Assembly: GCA_937127445.1 (NCBI GenBank)
Contig: CAKZLY010000035.1
Span: forward strand, 1 to 48,717
DNA from: Eximiradius sp.
Lineage (GTDB): Bacteria; Bacteroidota; Ignavibacteria; Kapaibacteriales; UBA2268
Direction: 5' to 3'
DNA length: 48,717 nt
Positions 20,610 to 33,671 of the stretch are shown one piece after another. Every line of letters begins with the position of its first letter. Position 1 is the stretch's first letter. The translations under genes and the position numbers were made by a program. The notes under the pieces were generated by a model, which saw only the letters and a program-made list of their open reading frames with translations, did no database searches and was not told where the DNA came from.

Positions 20610-21656
20610 TTAATTAATGAAATTTTTATAGATCTGCTGCTCATAGCCGGGAATCACCTGATCGATCAACCCTTCTACAACAAATCTCATTGGCAACATT
20701 TTTGCTTTTATTTTCCCGATTCCTGGCACGTAATAAATTGAAAGCACTCTCTCAAGATTTAATGGTAAATTCCCAAATTGTGTCTGAGCATTGCCAACAA
20801 ATTTAAATTTATAATCAACCTGAACAGCATTTTGGAATGTTGTGGAACTGATAGTAGTTGAAACATTCCCTTTATTTATCCCATCAATTGTAAGTTCACC
20901 ATTAAGTGTGCCGAATGTAAATTGTTCATTTATAAATGTATGAGAATAAATACGCCAATCATTTTGGTTTGGGTTAATGATTTTTACCCATTGGTCAGCG
21001 ATTTCGAATGGTAAAACAAATCCAGAAGCTCCAAAATTGACCAAATCATCAAACCAGCTTGAATGTGCATAGTAAGCATTACCGACTTTATAATAGTATT
21101 GATTTTTGTTTTGATTGTATTGATTTGAATTATCAACAGTAGAAAAGCTCAAAAACTTATATGCTTCTTGCTGCAAAATCATTTCTTTACCAACACAAAC
21201 TAAGCTATCCAACGTAAAATAGTTCATTACTGGATTCGCATTAGTATCAAGCTGATATTTTTTATAAACCCAATACCATCCATTACCTAAAGGCAAAAGG
21301 TCACCATTCAGTGCAATGACCACAAAATCAGTTTCACTGTAATAAGTCTTACCTTTGTATGTAATTGAAATTTTTCCAGTCGTTGCCTCAGAAGGAACAA
21401 AAGTTCTAATTACATAACGATTGTTACCAGATGCTTTAGTAATAGTATCAATTACTGCAACTTTCCCATTAAACTTAACTTCAAGTTCAGATTTTTTATT
21501 AGTAAATCCTTCAATAACAATTTCCACAACATTCCCAACCGATCCCGAACTTGGAGCAAAATAAATAATCTTATTTTCAGTAGGTTGAGTAGAATTATCA
21601 TCACTGCAACTTGCTAAAAGTAAGATGGCAAATAATATGAAAACATTTTTTTTCAT
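20610..21656 (-). CDS. Lipoprotein with IPT/TIG domain (tandem paralogue 1)
   Basis: A lipoprotein signal ends in LLASC, followed by Ser-Asp-Asp, so the protein (348 aa) is lipidated at Cys17. Residues about 30-115 form an IPT/TIG immunoglobulin-like domain (IYFAPSSGSVGNVVEIVIEG). The rest is a beta-rich domain shared with the next two genes: GNGWYWVYKKYQLD, VLPFEIADQWVKI, and near the end ERVLSIYYVPGIGKI. No enzymatic motif is visible. Its function is unknown; the cell-surface or periplasmic location is inferred from the signal. A GAGG ribosome binding site lies just upstream of the ATG. It is the last of three co-directional paralogues. Confidence 0.85.
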   Translation of the reverse strand: MKKNVFILFAILLLASCSDDNSTQPTENKIIYFAPSSGSVGNVVEIVIEGFTNKKSELEVKFNGKVAVIDTITKASGNNRYVIRTFVPSEATTGKISITYKGKTYYSETDFVVIALNGDLLPLGNGWYWVYKKYQLDTNANPVMNYFTLDSLVCVGKEMILQQEAYKFLSFSTVDNSNQYNQNKNQYYYKVGNAYYAHSSWFDDLVNFGASGFVLPFEIADQWVKIINPNQNDWRIYSHTFINEQFTFGTLNGELTIDGINKGNVSTTISSTTFQNAVQVDYKFKFVGNAQTQFGNLPLNLERVLSIYYVPGIGKIKAKMLPMRFVVEGLIDQVIPGYEQQIYKNFIN

Positions 21657-21679
21657 TACCTCTTCCCTACTTAAAAATA

Positions 21680-22504
21680 TTATAAGGATAATTTGCTAAC
21701 ATTATAACGGACTAAATTTTTCTGGTAACCTTCAATATCAAACTTTTGAGTTCCCATTGTTCCAAGATTTATTTCAATTGTTTTAGATTCGAGAAGTGAT
21801 TTAACCAATCCAATATTTTCAACAAAATAAAATCTTTGGACTAAATTTACTTCTATCGGAAAATTTAAAATAGTGTAGCTTAAATTACCCTTTATTGAAT
21901 GGTTTAAAATAACTTCAACAGCGTCAAAAGAAATGCTCCCAATAGTAATTTTAGTATTAGTAGTGTTACGTGTTGCTTTAACTGTGTAATTTGCATTAAA
22001 TTTTAAAGCAATTGGTAAGTTAGGAAGTTGAACTGTTTCGTTAGCGAATTGATGGGAGAATACATCCCAATTTGTTGCCTGGAAATCAGCTAAAACAATC
22101 CATTTGTTCTCTATTTTGTCAATGGGTAGACCGAAAACAGCGTTTGCAGGTAAAACATATTTTGTTTCTGTATATAATTTGGGTTTTTCATAATAAAAAT
22201 GGTAACGAGCAGTTTCTACAGGCAATTCGTTAATAAACCAAGAATATTGAACAAAAGGAAATGCCTCTTTTTGCAAGTATGTTACGCTCGAAGCTGTCAT
22301 AACTGAGTCGTTTCGTTTTGTATCAGGTTTTATCTGATTTTGCATATCTAAATCGTAATTCTCATAAAACCAGTAATTCCCAGCTTTAAGCGGGAAATAA
22401 TTCTTTTCCTGAGAATTATCATCAATTGGATTATTGTTGTTGTCATCGTCTGAGCAAGCAAACAAAAAGAATGGTAACAAAAATAACAAAACATACTTTT
22501 TCAT
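21680..22504 (-). CDS. Lipoprotein of unknown function (tandem paralogue 2)
   Basis: This 274-residue protein has a lipobox LFAC followed by SDDDNNNN, an Asp-rich spacer common in exported FCB-group lipoproteins. It lacks the IPT/TIG domain of paralogue 1 but shares the main domain: KAGNYWFYENYDLD, FGLPIDKIENKWIVLADF, NWDVFSHQF and, near the end, VQRFYFVENIGLVKS. It lies 23 bases upstream of paralogue 1 and 10 bases downstream of paralogue 3, which suggests one transcript. No catalytic signature was recognised. Confidence 0.85.
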   Translation of the reverse strand: MKKYVLLFLLPFFLFACSDDDNNNNPIDDNSQEKNYFPLKAGNYWFYENYDLDMQNQIKPDTKRNDSVMTASSVTYLQKEAFPFVQYSWFINELPVETARYHFYYEKPKLYTETKYVLPANAVFGLPIDKIENKWIVLADFQATNWDVFSHQFANETVQLPNLPIALKFNANYTVKATRNTTNTKITIGSISFDAVEVILNHSIKGNLSYTILNFPIEVNLVQRFYFVENIGLVKSLLESKTIEINLGTMGTQKFDIEGYQKNLVRYNVSKLSL

Positions 22505-22514
22505 AATAAACCCC

Positions 22515-23279
22515 CTATTTTATTAAATAATTAGTTAACACTGATTTCGAACCAGGGACTGTAAATCCTAAAAGCTGCACTTTGGTTGGTTGATTAATTT
22601 GTTGAACAAGCCCAATTCCATTTACAAAATGAACATAAATTTTTTGTTCAAAATTCAAGTTAACAGGAATCGGAGCTTGCTGAAATTTTAAATTTCCATT
22701 AAATGATACATTCAGATAAAATTCATATGCTTGAAATTTCTTATTATTCAATAGGAAATCTTTTTTACCTCTGTTTTCGCCTGTAATAAGCAATTTGCCA
22801 GAAATTGTACCCAATCCCATAAATGAAGTTTCTGGAATTTCATCCTCGAATGCTTTCCAATCATCATCATTTATATCCGCAACTTTTACCCATTGCTCTT
22901 TGAAAGTAAAAGGCAACCCCGGCAGCCCTCCACCACTAAAAAATTGATTAAATCTACTTGAATGCATATATAATTTTTGGTTTTCTTCATACGAATAATA
23001 TTCAGATGTTGATAATTCTTGCCCATTGTAATTTTTTGTTGTTGTAAAAAATATCGTTCCTAATTTGTCAAGCAGAGTTTTTTGACCAGAAACAACAACC
23101 GAGTCGTAATTATTTGATTTTTTCTCAACGTTGTTTGAGTCAATATCATAGTTTTCGTATATCCAATAGGAATGAAGACTTTTCGGTTGAATTTCTGACT
23201 TTGTTGGGGAGGTGCTATTTTTATCAGAACAAGAGTATAAAAGTACAATAAGAAATATTAAATACACTCTTTTTTTCAT
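22515..23279 (-). CDS. Lipoprotein of unknown function (tandem paralogue 3)
   Basis: The start at 23279 gives the signal MKKRVYLIFLIVLLYSC with the lipid-modified Cys at 17, and has AGGA a few bases upstream. An earlier in-frame start 13 codons upstream would bury the signal and is rejected. The mature protein shares the family domain: LHSYWIYENYDID, LPFTFKEQWVKVADI, DDDWKAFEDE and, near the end, EQKIYVHFVNGIGLV. It is the first gene of the three-paralogue cluster. Its promoter probably lies in the 150-base gap to tex, which also has an AT hairpin (23380-23396). Confidence 0.84.
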   Translation of the reverse strand: MKKRVYLIFLIVLLYSCSDKNSTSPTKSEIQPKSLHSYWIYENYDIDSNNVEKKSNNYDSVVVSGQKTLLDKLGTIFFTTTKNYNGQELSTSEYYSYEENQKLYMHSSRFNQFFSGGGLPGLPFTFKEQWVKVADINDDDWKAFEDEIPETSFMGLGTISGKLLITGENRGKKDFLLNNKKFQAYEFYLNVSFNGNLKFQQAPIPVNLNFEQKIYVHFVNGIGLVQQINQPTKVQLLGFTVPGSKSVLTNYLIK

Positions 23280-23379
23280 AAATTCCTCGAATAATTTATA
23301 TTTGGAACTATATAACAATATACTCTATAATTTAACAAAAGTTTTAAATTATTAATTTCAAACTGTAAAACGATAATAA

Positions 23380-27985: not shown

Positions 27986-28810
27986 TTACTTAGCATGAAA
28001 TCCATTAACAATAATTAGGGAATCGTAACTCATACCATTGATTTTAACATATCTAAGATATCTATTATAAACATCATAGTTGGGAGCTTGCAAAGAACGA
28101 ATTAAAAGAATTTCTTTGCCCTTCAACGTTTTTATTGCAAAATCTTTTGCTGCTAAGCCGAGAGCAAGTGCTGAATCAACGGAAATTTTGTTTCGTTTAG
28201 CTTGTTCTTCCAATCTCTCGTTAATTTGCGTTTCATAACAATCAATATTCAGAACACGAACCTTATAGAGGACCCCTTCATATTTAAAATCAAATGTATC
28301 ACCATCATAAATCCAGTTTACTATTGCATAAAATTCTTTGTCATCTGGCGAAGGGCGTCGAGGTGCATTCAATTTATTTGCAACAATTATTGAATCATAT
28401 CTTAATCCATTAATAAAAATGTGTCTGAGTAATTCACCTGTTGGGAGGCTATTTGATTGAAGCGAATCACGTCTTATTATAATTTTCTTTTTTAACAATA
28501 ATTCTTTAGCAAATTCTACAGCATTACGAGCAATTGAAAGCGCTGAATCTTCTGAAATCCCGGCAATTTTTGCCTGATTTGTTAGTATCTCATTCCTCTC
28601 TAACTCGAAACAATGCAAATCAACAACAACAACTGAATATTTTTTGTTGTTGATAGTTGTAACTATCTTATTTACATTAATTATAGAATCGACAGTTACC
28701 TCTAATTCCCATTCATTTGGGATATAATTGTTGGAATCCGGATTGGAACTATTATCACCACAAGAATAAAATAAAAGTAACGATAATAACAATAAAGATA
28801 ACTTTTTCAT
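27986..28810 (-). CDS. Lipoprotein with two SNase-like (thermonuclease) domains
   Basis: The start at 28810 gives a lipoprotein signal with Cys17 (LFYSC); an upstream start six codons earlier is less likely. The 274-residue protein holds two repeats of a staphylococcal-nuclease-like domain. Repeat 2 (about 160-274) keeps the key residues: DGD at 169-171, Arg185, Asp190, Glu193 (RVLNIDCYE) and Arg250 (DVYNRYLRYV). Repeat 1 (about 45-150) is clearly homologous (NQAKIAGISEDSA against EQAKRNKISVDSA) but has Val, His66 and Glu126 at the positions of Arg185, Asp190 and Arg250, so it is probably inactive. It may be a surface nuclease; function is inferred. Confidence 0.8.
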   Translation of the reverse strand: MKKLSLLLLSLLLFYSCGDNSSNPDSNNYIPNEWELEVTVDSIINVNKIVTTINNKKYSVVVVDLHCFELERNEILTNQAKIAGISEDSALSIARNAVEFAKELLLKKKIIIRRDSLQSNSLPTGELLRHIFINGLRYDSIIVANKLNAPRRPSPDDKEFYAIVNWIYDGDTFDFKYEGVLYKVRVLNIDCYETQINERLEEQAKRNKISVDSALALGLAAKDFAIKTLKGKEILLIRSLQAPNYDVYNRYLRYVKINGMSYDSLIIVNGFHAK

Positions 28811-28844
28811 AACGTTTATCTCAATCAAAATAAAACATTAAAGT

Positions 28845-30692: not shown

Positions 30693-32366
30693 TTATTGTT
30701 GCTGAATTTTTTCTTTTTCTTTTTGGAGCTCCTCTATTCTTGTTCTCGTTTCGGCAATTTTTTGTTCTTTTTCAGAAATACGTTCTTGAATTGCTTTTAT
30801 TTTTTCCTCTTTGTCCGACTCATTCATATCATCAGACTTTATATGATCAATTGACTGTTTATCAGCATTAATGGATTCTTCCAAACGTTGGATTTTGAGT
30901 TCAAGGTTACTCAATGTTTCATTAAGTTTAATAATACGTTCTTGCTTGCGTTTTTCAAAATATTCATTTTTCAATTTATCAATAATGACAAATGCTTTTT
31001 GAATTTTTTCAAGAAGTTCGGTTCTTTGTTCACGTTTTAGTTTCACAATACGAACTTCACTTTGAATACCAATGATATTTTCGCGAAGCAATCTAAAATC
31101 ACTCGTGTTATTTAGATAAACAAAAGCTTCTTCAATTTTTGCAGACAATTTCGAGTAATTTTCGTTTGCTTCCTTGTCGTAATTTTCTCTATCAGCATTT
31201 TGTTTTTCATTTATAGATTCAAAAACACGGCGAATATTACTGAAAAGTTCATCTTTTTGAATTTTTCGCAGAATAGCAGCTTTAATTGCGGCTTGTGCAG
31301 CAATTAATGTATCTTTAGCTTCTTTGAAGCTTGTTGTAATATTCTCTGCAAATGAAATTGCATCATCAACGATTTTTTTGATTTTTTGATAATTTTCCTC
31401 GTAATCAGCATCAGACATTTGGCGTTCTTGTTGTTGACGCTGATTAATTCCTTCAAAACAGTCACGGATAATTTGGTACAATTCTTCTCTTTGGTTACGC
31501 TTTAACTTTTTATCTTTTATCTCAGATTGAAGATCAATTAAACTTTGACGAGCAGATTTGAAATGCGTTGCTTTGCTTGCTTTTTCTACTGTAGCTTCAA
31601 CTTTTGCTTTAAGAATATGATAGTTTTCGGAACATTCCATTTCATAGTTTTCACGTTCTTCGCGAATTTTGTTATTTATATTCTCTATTGCATTGTTCAA
31701 TGCTGTGAGAATTTCTTCAGCATGTTCTCTTTTCAACGACAGTTTTCTAAATTCGCTTTTAGCATTGATTAGTTTTTCTCTTGCTTCATTAAAGTTCTGA
31801 GTTTCGTTAGCGAATTTAATTGCTTCATCTACAATTACTTTTATCTGTTCATAATTTTTGGTTTGTTCAGCTTGAATTTTTTCGGTTTCTTCTTTCTGAC
31901 GAGCAATTAAAATTTCTAACGAAGAATTCAATTTATCTAAAAGACTATTTTTATTTTCAAGTGCTGGTTGATAACTATTTAGTATAGAGATTAAGTCTCT
32001 AATTTTGTTTCTAACTTCTTTCCAGTTTGAGCTATTTTTTGCTTCTTCTGTTACAAATTCGATGTCAATATTAATTTCAGAAGCAAATTCCTCTTTAGAA
32101 AAATTCTCTAAATTTGCATAAGGCATCAAATAGCGACGAAGATAAATTTTCCCATCGGTTGAAGTTCTCTTTATTGCCGAAAGATCGGCTGATTTGAACA
32201 TCATTACTACATTTGATAATTCGATAAATAAATCCGGATTAATAATTAAGAATTCAGCATCAGCTGTTTCGTCAAAATTTTCGAATTTTTTGCCTGTAAC
32301 AGCACACATTCCTTTTTGACGTTCCCAAACTGTTCGTTTTTGCTCTTGTGTAAGTTCAGCAATCAC
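30693..32366 (-). CDS. DUF349-like repeat protein with degenerate HNH-like head
   Basis: A GTG start at 32366 is chosen because AAGGGA stands six bases upstream; a TTG nine codons earlier lacks such a site. Residues about 10-65 (KRTVWERQKGMCAVTGKKFE) resemble the first half of an HNH nuclease, but the catalytic His position reads DAEFLI and the second Cys pair is missing. After it come about five tandem helical repeats of 77 residues, with NY-x2-I/L landmarks at 171, 248, 325 and 403 and consensus FKEAR-LI-x-QSEIK-x2-KLKR. Spacing and pattern resemble DUF349. The last 90 residues are a Glu/Lys-rich coiled coil. No signal peptide. Function unknown. Confidence 0.75.
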   Translation of the reverse strand: MIAELTQEQKRTVWERQKGMCAVTGKKFENFDETADAEFLIINPDLFIELSNVVMMFKSADLSAIKRTSTDGKIYLRRYLMPYANLENFSKEEFASEINIDIEFVTEEAKNSSNWKEVRNKIRDLISILNSYQPALENKNSLLDKLNSSLEILIARQKEETEKIQAEQTKNYEQIKVIVDEAIKFANETQNFNEAREKLINAKSEFRKLSLKREHAEEILTALNNAIENINNKIREERENYEMECSENYHILKAKVEATVEKASKATHFKSARQSLIDLQSEIKDKKLKRNQREELYQIIRDCFEGINQRQQQERQMSDADYEENYQKIKKIVDDAISFAENITTSFKEAKDTLIAAQAAIKAAILRKIQKDELFSNIRRVFESINEKQNADRENYDKEANENYSKLSAKIEEAFVYLNNTSDFRLLRENIIGIQSEVRIVKLKREQRTELLEKIQKAFVIIDKLKNEYFEKRKQERIIKLNETLSNLELKIQRLEESINADKQSIDHIKSDDMNESDKEEKIKAIQERISEKEQKIAETRTRIEELQKEKEKIQQQ

Positions 32367-32472
32367 TGTTGTTCCCTTTAGTAAGTAATACAAAAATAAT
32401 AAAGTTAATAAGAACTGTCATTAAATACAAGTTGCTAATTTATTTAATATAAAGTAAAATAACAAATTTTTT

Positions 32473-33281: not shown

Positions 33282-33309
33282 ATTATTTGATATTATTTGA
33301 TATTATTTG
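33282..33309. repeat. 10-base tandem repeat, about three copies
   Basis: The unit TATTATTTGA is repeated nearly three times and runs over the stop codon of the minus-strand gene that ends at 33303. It resembles in period and position the AT tandem repeat at the end of cas6. Confidence 0.8.
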
Positions 33310-33584
33310 CCAAGTTGTTTAAATTCTTTATCCAGAGTAGATTCAATAGTTTTTTTAGCAATGGAACCGAACAAAGAAAATTCGAAATCTATTGTAATCA
33401 AATTATTCTCTAAAATAATTTTTCCTTTACCTAATTTACTGTTTATGAATAAAGTGTCGCCTTCCCAATGTGTACTTTCAAGAAAAGTTGCAAGAGTTGG
33501 ATTTGGCAATAATTTAGTGGAAATATAGTTTTTCATTTCCGATGCTGAATAATTTGTTTGAAATTGCTTATGCAGCTTCGCCAT
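33303..33584 (-). CDS. Small protein resembling the polyhydroxyalkanoate granule-region family
   Basis: The start at 33584 has AGG about seven bases upstream and gives a 93-codon frame; the upstream start (nine codons earlier) adds atypical residues. The layout is an N-terminal helix with SASEMKNYISTKLLPN, a HWEGDTLFINSKLGKGKI strand pair, and a closing helix IESTLDKEF. This pattern resembles PHA_gran_rgn (polyhydroxyalkanoic acid system) proteins. No PHA genes are nearby, so a PHA role is not supported; the fold could serve another purpose. Confidence 0.6.
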   Translation of the reverse strand: MAKLHKQFQTNYSASEMKNYISTKLLPNPTLATFLESTHWEGDTLFINSKLGKGKIILENNLITIDFEFSLFGSIAKKTIESTLDKEFKQLGK

Positions 33585-33671
33585 AAAGTACCTATTGACT
33601 AAATAATACAATAAATGTAAGTTATAAACGAAAAATAGTAAATATAATTTTAATCACTTTTTTGTGTTTTT

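Follow-up and report, generated by a model that had tools for sequence, protein, structure and literature searches.

Introduction

Proteins with DUF349 (PF03993) are found, at an E-value of 0.001, in 80 of 247 sampled genomes of the phylum treated here, and the family is nearly unstudied. The accessible part of PMC13118837 has a single mention of it, in a list. One characterized DUF349 protein is MSMEG_2731, a mycobacterial protein with three DUF349 repeats; the accessible part of its report describes binding to ssDNA, dsDNA, RNA and ribosomal protein S1, and gives the knock-out strain a mutation rate almost as in wild type, with the data not shown there (PMC3348880). In other classes of the host's phylum, DUF349 proteins share with the protein described below tandem repeats of about 75 residues, a variable N-terminal region and a C-terminal coiled-coil hairpin.

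Here we describe a gene from Eximiradius sp., a member of the Bacteroidota (GCA_937127445.1, contig CAKZLY010000035.1), found in a stretch of 48,717 nucleotides that we call the window. Its product, the rod protein, has an N-terminal head that resembles HNH nucleases and a long helical rod that resembles DUF349. A search of the literature by the word DUF349, with subscription papers mostly outside its reach, found no paper in which an HNH head is joined to DUF349, and we regard the combination as a new architecture. This divergent branch offers handles on what such rods bind: a head recognizably derived from a nuclease, a junction motif that is near-invariant, and ftsH as a recurring neighbor.

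Results

The rod gene and its distribution

Features of the gene are collected in Table 1. A TTG at 32393 is an alternative start; the GTG was chosen over this upstream codon because orthologs have their N-termini at the corresponding position. With a pI of 5.7 the protein is acidic, as are nearly all members of its family, with pI 4.8-6.4 in 30 of 31 sequences and 8.5 in the remaining one. It has no obvious transmembrane segment, since the highest 19-residue Kyte-Doolittle mean is 1.53. The gene is under purifying selection. Between the window gene and two close relatives dN/dS is 0.02-0.04 for the rod and 0.05-0.17 for the head; in the comparison with L030, which is more distant, the head value is 0.16 at a dS near 2, and no value could be computed for the rod.

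Table 1. Coordinates of the rod gene and its parts, numbered along the window
Feature	Coordinates	Strand	Residues	Remarks
Rod gene	30693..32366	-		557 aa; GTG start at 32366, TAA stop ending at 30693
N-terminal head	32103..32366	-	1-88	HNH-derived; without the catalytic His and with one of four zinc Cys left
RQKGMCAVTG	32292..32321	-	16-25	Remnant of the start of the HNH knuckle
Repeat R0	31857..32087	-	94-170	Degenerate, DUF349-like; hhalign to R1-R4 94.39-98.65%
Repeat R1	31626..31856	-	171-247	Profile-profile comparison
Repeat R2	31395..31625	-	248-324	Profile-profile comparison
Repeat R3	31161..31394	-	325-402	Profile-profile comparison
Repeat R4	30927..31160	-	403-480	Profile-profile comparison; net positive in 20 of 21 rows
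R1/R2 junction RENYEMECSEN	31623..31655	-	238-248	Densest conserved run
C-terminal coiled-coil hairpin	30696..30926	-	481-557	Model has helices at 445-511 and 516-556; matches the DUF349 tail in register

The genome carries one copy of the gene. Among 60 related genomes, its own included, 23 have it, and all 23 belong to the host's family. A profile built from 22 members finds the gene in 33 of 54 genomes of that family, representing 17 of 27 genera, and finds none in the other 21 at an E-value of 1e-10. Class-wide, at least 12 of 294 genomes have the gene among the up to four candidates scored per genome, and all of these are again in the host's family. The rod gene was thus found only in one bacterial family.

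Five repeats and a hairpin

The initial annotation proposed a chain of about five helical repeats, marked by an NY-x2-I/L landmark recurring about every 77 residues from residue 171 and preceded by a more degenerate copy. The translation bears out each landmark, at residues 171 (NYEQI), 248 (NYHIL), 325 (NYQKI) and 403 (NYSKL), with spacings of 77, 77 and 78. In alignments over relatives, repeats R1 to R4 match one another at profile-profile probabilities of 99.06-99.94%. The degenerate copy ahead of them, R0, aligns to all four, R0-R4 being the weakest pair, so that all five units align with one another at 94.39-99.94%. The best of 40 column shuffles reached 1.3%, and the C-terminal coiled coil, taken as a helical control, gave no more than 1.3%. 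Because the mutual alignment of the units stands far above both the shuffles and the coiled coil, the five repeats are established beyond chance. The rod gene of L017 / L124 (G013) has one additional 77-residue unit near R2, so repeat number changes by whole units.

Conservation is densest where R1 meets R2. Residues E239, E242, M243, E244 and N248 are present in 19 of 19 counted rows, and C245 in 18 of 19. Four of the five repeats have mean net charges from -3.3 to +0.6; only R4 is consistently basic.

An AlphaFold model of the full-length protein, built from six sequences (mean pLDDT 80.3, pTM 0.35), alternates long helices of about 50 residues with short ones of about 17 and ends in a helical hairpin. 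The overall curvature of the modeled rod is not fixed, because the pTM is low.

Relationship to DUF349

Alignment to DUF349 was sought at several levels. Searched alone against Pfam, the window protein has neither a DUF349 nor an HNH match at an E-value of 1 or better. Among aligned members of the rod family, DUF349 is matched at that level in 8 of 22, the best at 7.6e-5. Run over the 60 related genomes, the Pfam DUF349 model gives ten matches at an E-value of 0.01, nine of them in the rod family's own genes, and one rod-family gene scores above the curated cut-off for PF03993 (26.2 versus 23.9 bits).

The rod family was then compared by profile with 30 DUF349 proteins drawn from the phylum's other classes, probably Bacteroidia. 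The match has a probability of 98% and an E-value of 1.5e-13. It spans 444 columns, covers residues 102-552, and runs in register through all five repeats and the hairpin of the tail, at an identity of 14%. The reversed profile scored 0.5%, the best column shuffle 0.5% and the best shuffle of seven-column blocks 2.1%, with 25 shuffles of each kind. Single repeat units gave weak values against DUF349 (3.4-37.1%), and the C-terminal hairpin alone gave 9%, so that only the whole-rod comparison is convincing. The rod also has the tandem all-helical build of DUF349 proteins, whose repeats run to about 75 residues, in its five units of 77-78 residues, helical in the model, and the rod family shows a profile-profile relationship to accepted members. 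The resemblance to DUF349 first suggested from the letters of the sequence is upheld by the Pfam matches in relatives and by the whole-rod match. Judged by profile, the rod protein is a divergent DUF349 protein.

Unlike DUF349 proteins of the other classes, the window protein has an HNH-derived head, lies below Pfam detection and has different gene neighbors. An HNH-derived head occurs in none of the 30 other-class proteins, some of which are truncated at the N-terminus, either by the limits of the fetched stretch or by the chosen start.

Several other likenesses were weighed and set aside. Weak matches of the window protein in Pfam, NCBIfam and PHROGs (for example SMC, 0.012) were taken as helical or chance. 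A search of the PDB with the A1 profile gave helical chains, among them apolipoproteins (best 1.2e-4) and dynactin, which we ascribe to composition, and Foldseek with the model returned nothing at an E-value of 0.001 or better. The best VIA row was the alanyl-tRNA synthetase C-terminal domain (5t5s, Z 12.0, 121 residues aligned, rmsd 4.2); its Z is below about 13, the level under which VIA warns against matches of helical bundles. The same domain in 6now (Z 10.6, 74 aligned, rmsd 2.0) likewise falls below it.

Rods of the spectrin type have helical units that share continuous long helices, as in the model of the rod protein. Their VIA rows stand at the level expected of any helical rod (5j1i, Z 8.8, rmsd 19.0, 222 aligned; 3kbu, Z 7.7, rmsd 10.0, 215 aligned). 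A spectrin repeat has about 106 residues, compared with the 77-residue unit here. This layout of shared long helices invites the reading that the protein is purely structural, a cytoplasmic rod or cytoskeletal-type spacer on which the head is an interchangeable tether, and the rod is indeed conserved across members whose N-termini are HNH-derived, acidic or short. The near-invariant residues at the R1/R2 junction suggest instead a specific binding site, and we consider a purely structural role unlikely, though it deserves serious weight.

Gene neighborhood

In 12 of 20 fetched relatives, drawn from seven genera, the rod gene lies directly downstream of ftsH on the same strand, with adjacency counted over open reading frames of 80 amino acids or more. 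The gaps are 8-389 nucleotides, and 8-97 in ten of the 12. Rods linked to ftsH carry HNH-derived as well as acidic heads. The same 12 regions include tilS in six cases and hpt in three; for each of FtsH, TilS and Hpt the identity was verified in one example. No ftsH stands beside the rod gene in the window or in seven of the 20 fetched relatives, and the L110 region is too short to tell. In the window, as in L105 and L106, the rod gene precedes queD, folE and rnhB.

This linkage makes it conceivable that the rod protein is a scaffold or adaptor between proteins, tied to the FtsH protease as adaptor, substrate or regulator and with no nucleic-acid role. Its recurrence across seven genera and both kinds of head speaks for such a tie, as does the acidity of the rod, and ftsH is absent among the neighbors shown in all 19 regions around other-class DUF349 genes. 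Against it stand the window and the seven relatives without adjacency, and the 21 of 54 host-family genomes that lack the rod gene, of which 11 of the 12 searched have ftsH. The gene order may also reflect only one ancestral operon. A role confined to FtsH seems to us rather improbable.

A search for an overlooked rod gene downstream of ftsH covered 26 loci, taken from host-family genomes with and without the rod gene and from other families of the order. Neither profile found a match in these loci, of which two have no downstream sequence and three have 295-819 bases of it. In L178 (G012), folE directly follows ftsH; in the window, folE is downstream of the rod gene, after queD. This single relative is too little to tie the rod-queD-folE order of the window to the ftsH operon.

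Other genes of the window were noted in passing. The gene at 27986-28828 (minus strand) encodes a probable lipoprotein, has no Pfam nuclease match, and is conserved near the rod gene in two relatives, L105 and L106; its product carries what we take, by eye, to be motifs like those of staphylococcal nuclease. Three adjacent genes at 20613-23318 (minus strand) encode proteins of 267-348 amino acids that cluster together by BLAST, with no Pfam domain except a weak lipoprotein signal in one. At 33306-33611 (minus strand) a small protein scores 25.3 bits for PHA_gran_rgn, for which the Pfam cut-off is 26.6; its gene adjoins that of a CAAX-type protease upstream of the rod gene.

An HNH-derived head

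The N-terminal region, which includes the segment WERQKGMCAVTGK, had been proposed to resemble an HNH nuclease without its catalytic His. The profile searches and the alignment of the heads agree with that proposal. A profile of the head family matches PDB entries for the HNH domains of the group II intron maturase 6me0 (3.3e-6) and of McrA 6ghc (1.1e-3). The Pfam HNH model (PF01844) matches 3 of 13 heads, the best at 1.1e-5, with the window head unmatched, so the profile relationship of the domain holds at the level of the family. Run over the 54 host-family genomes, the head profile recovers 18 rod heads and 15 matches elsewhere, 12 of which were examined at fetched loci. Several of these non-rod matches look alike, and L170 is GmrSD_N plus HNH by Pfam. 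Such GmrSD-type proteins are the best non-rod matches and have the same knuckle start. They differ from the rod heads in keeping the catalytic DH and in having the HNH domain at the C-terminus. In the alignments to 6me0 and 6ghc, HH occupies the column where the head consensus lacks His.

In a joint alignment, His is missing from the catalytic column in 17 of 18 heads, the window's included; these heads are not independent, as three come from the window's genus and five from one other genus. All 12 comparison HNH proteins have the His, which follows from how they were chosen, as they were cut out by the pattern CxxC followed by DH. Twelve of the 18 heads, again including that of the window, retain the Asn. 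All four zinc Cys are present in seven. The other 11, the window's among them, retain the first Cys only; its partner in the first pair has gone along with the whole second pair. The window head accordingly has neither the catalytic His of a DH/HH motif nor the zinc knuckle of two CxxC pairs that marks the zinc-bearing HNH domains. Each of the 13 aligned heads has R16, Q17, C21 and G25. Models were of little help here, since most of the head is below pLDDT 50 in both the full-length and the head-only AlphaFold models (mean pLDDT 39.8 for the latter). By its profile matches the head is of HNH ancestry, and its catalytic His has been lost. With the loss of His in 17 of 18 heads and of zinc Cys, it would be a domain of HNH descent that cannot be a normal HNH nuclease.

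The N-termini of the family are of three kinds: two are HNH-like and have either two CxxC pairs or a single Cys (as in the window), and the third is acidic or short. This graded series, from four Cys to one and on to an acidic or short N-terminus, could be the trace of a relic decaying without function. The head dN/dS between close relatives and the invariance of R16, Q17, C21 and G25 in all 13 aligned heads argue otherwise, and decay without function appears very unlikely. The series appears rather to be one in which catalytic and zinc residues are lost while the domain stays under selection. That the rod carries a working HNH nuclease we consider extremely improbable, because 17 of 18 heads are without the His and the window head also lacks the second zinc pair. 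In its favor are the HNH profile match of relatives and the head of L113 (G009), the least degenerate one, in which the catalytic column still has a His, followed by two extra residues, and the Asn and the full set of four zinc Cys remain.

We constructed a tree of 30 rods, including that of the window and leaving out L018, L021, L023, L025, L026 and L032 as fragments or duplicates. The N-terminal kinds are clustered on it, with 6 changes compared with 13.7 in shuffles, and 13 of the 30 rows have no HNH-derived head. A tree in which one branch separates all 17 HNH-headed rows from the rest is rejected (p 4e-65). The 11 rows with degenerate heads are rejected as a clade when taken alone (p 1e-31). 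The short-headed L100 nests among them, and one origin with L100 included is not rejected (p 0.459); nor is a single clade of the acidic forms without L100 (p 0.228). The midpoint root, used for drawing only, has HNH-bearing rows to either side of it, so the simplest reading is that the family's ancestor probably had an HNH head that was later lost in some lineages.

Discussion

We infer a non-catalytic binding role for the rod protein. The reading we favor, with somewhat less than even confidence, is that of a non-cutting, rod-shaped binding protein, a DUF349 rod with an HNH-derived head, whose partner is perhaps nucleic acid. An N-terminal HNH domain would have been acquired from a nuclease and would then have lost its catalytic His and, in the window's lineage, its zinc site too. 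It would sit on five helical repeats that share long helices and end in a coiled-coil hairpin. Such a protein would not cut. It would act in the cytoplasm, with the head, or the acidic tail in sister genera, as one contact. The second contact would be the rod itself, chiefly through its conserved R1/R2 junction and through R4, the basic repeat. The junction motif RENYEMECSEN is the first place to look for the putative binding site of the rod.

Several observations bear on the partner. With four weakly or negatively charged repeats and an acidic pI, a nucleic-acid partner is not favored. The recurring neighbor in relatives is the gene of a membrane protease, not a nucleic-acid gene, which counts against a nucleic-acid role. 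Since 13 of the 30 rows have no HNH head, no single function of the head is conserved. Nucleic acid as the partner of the rod protein is put forward as a conjecture, drawn from MSMEG_2731.

A bolder scheme would join these elements. In the family's ancestor, an HNH domain of the restriction type may have been domesticated on a DUF349 rod, to serve for contact without cutting. The rod might then have been wired into the ftsH operon as an adaptor joining the membrane protease to nucleic acid or ribosomes, with the zinc site lost, or the head swapped for an acidic tail, at later stages. We hold this scheme to be very doubtful as a whole.

The analogy of the rod protein with MSMEG_2731 and Rv2731 of mycobacteria is drawn from the shared DUF349 name. 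According to the accessible part of its report, the N-terminus of MSMEG_2731 is proline- and arginine-rich and disordered (PMC3348880), whereas the rod protein has its HNH-derived head in that position. By analogy with MSMEG_2731, the likely partner of the preferred non-cutting binding protein would be nucleic acid or a ribonucleoprotein, and a binding or scaffolding role, possibly one that involves nucleic acid, is plausible for the rod protein.
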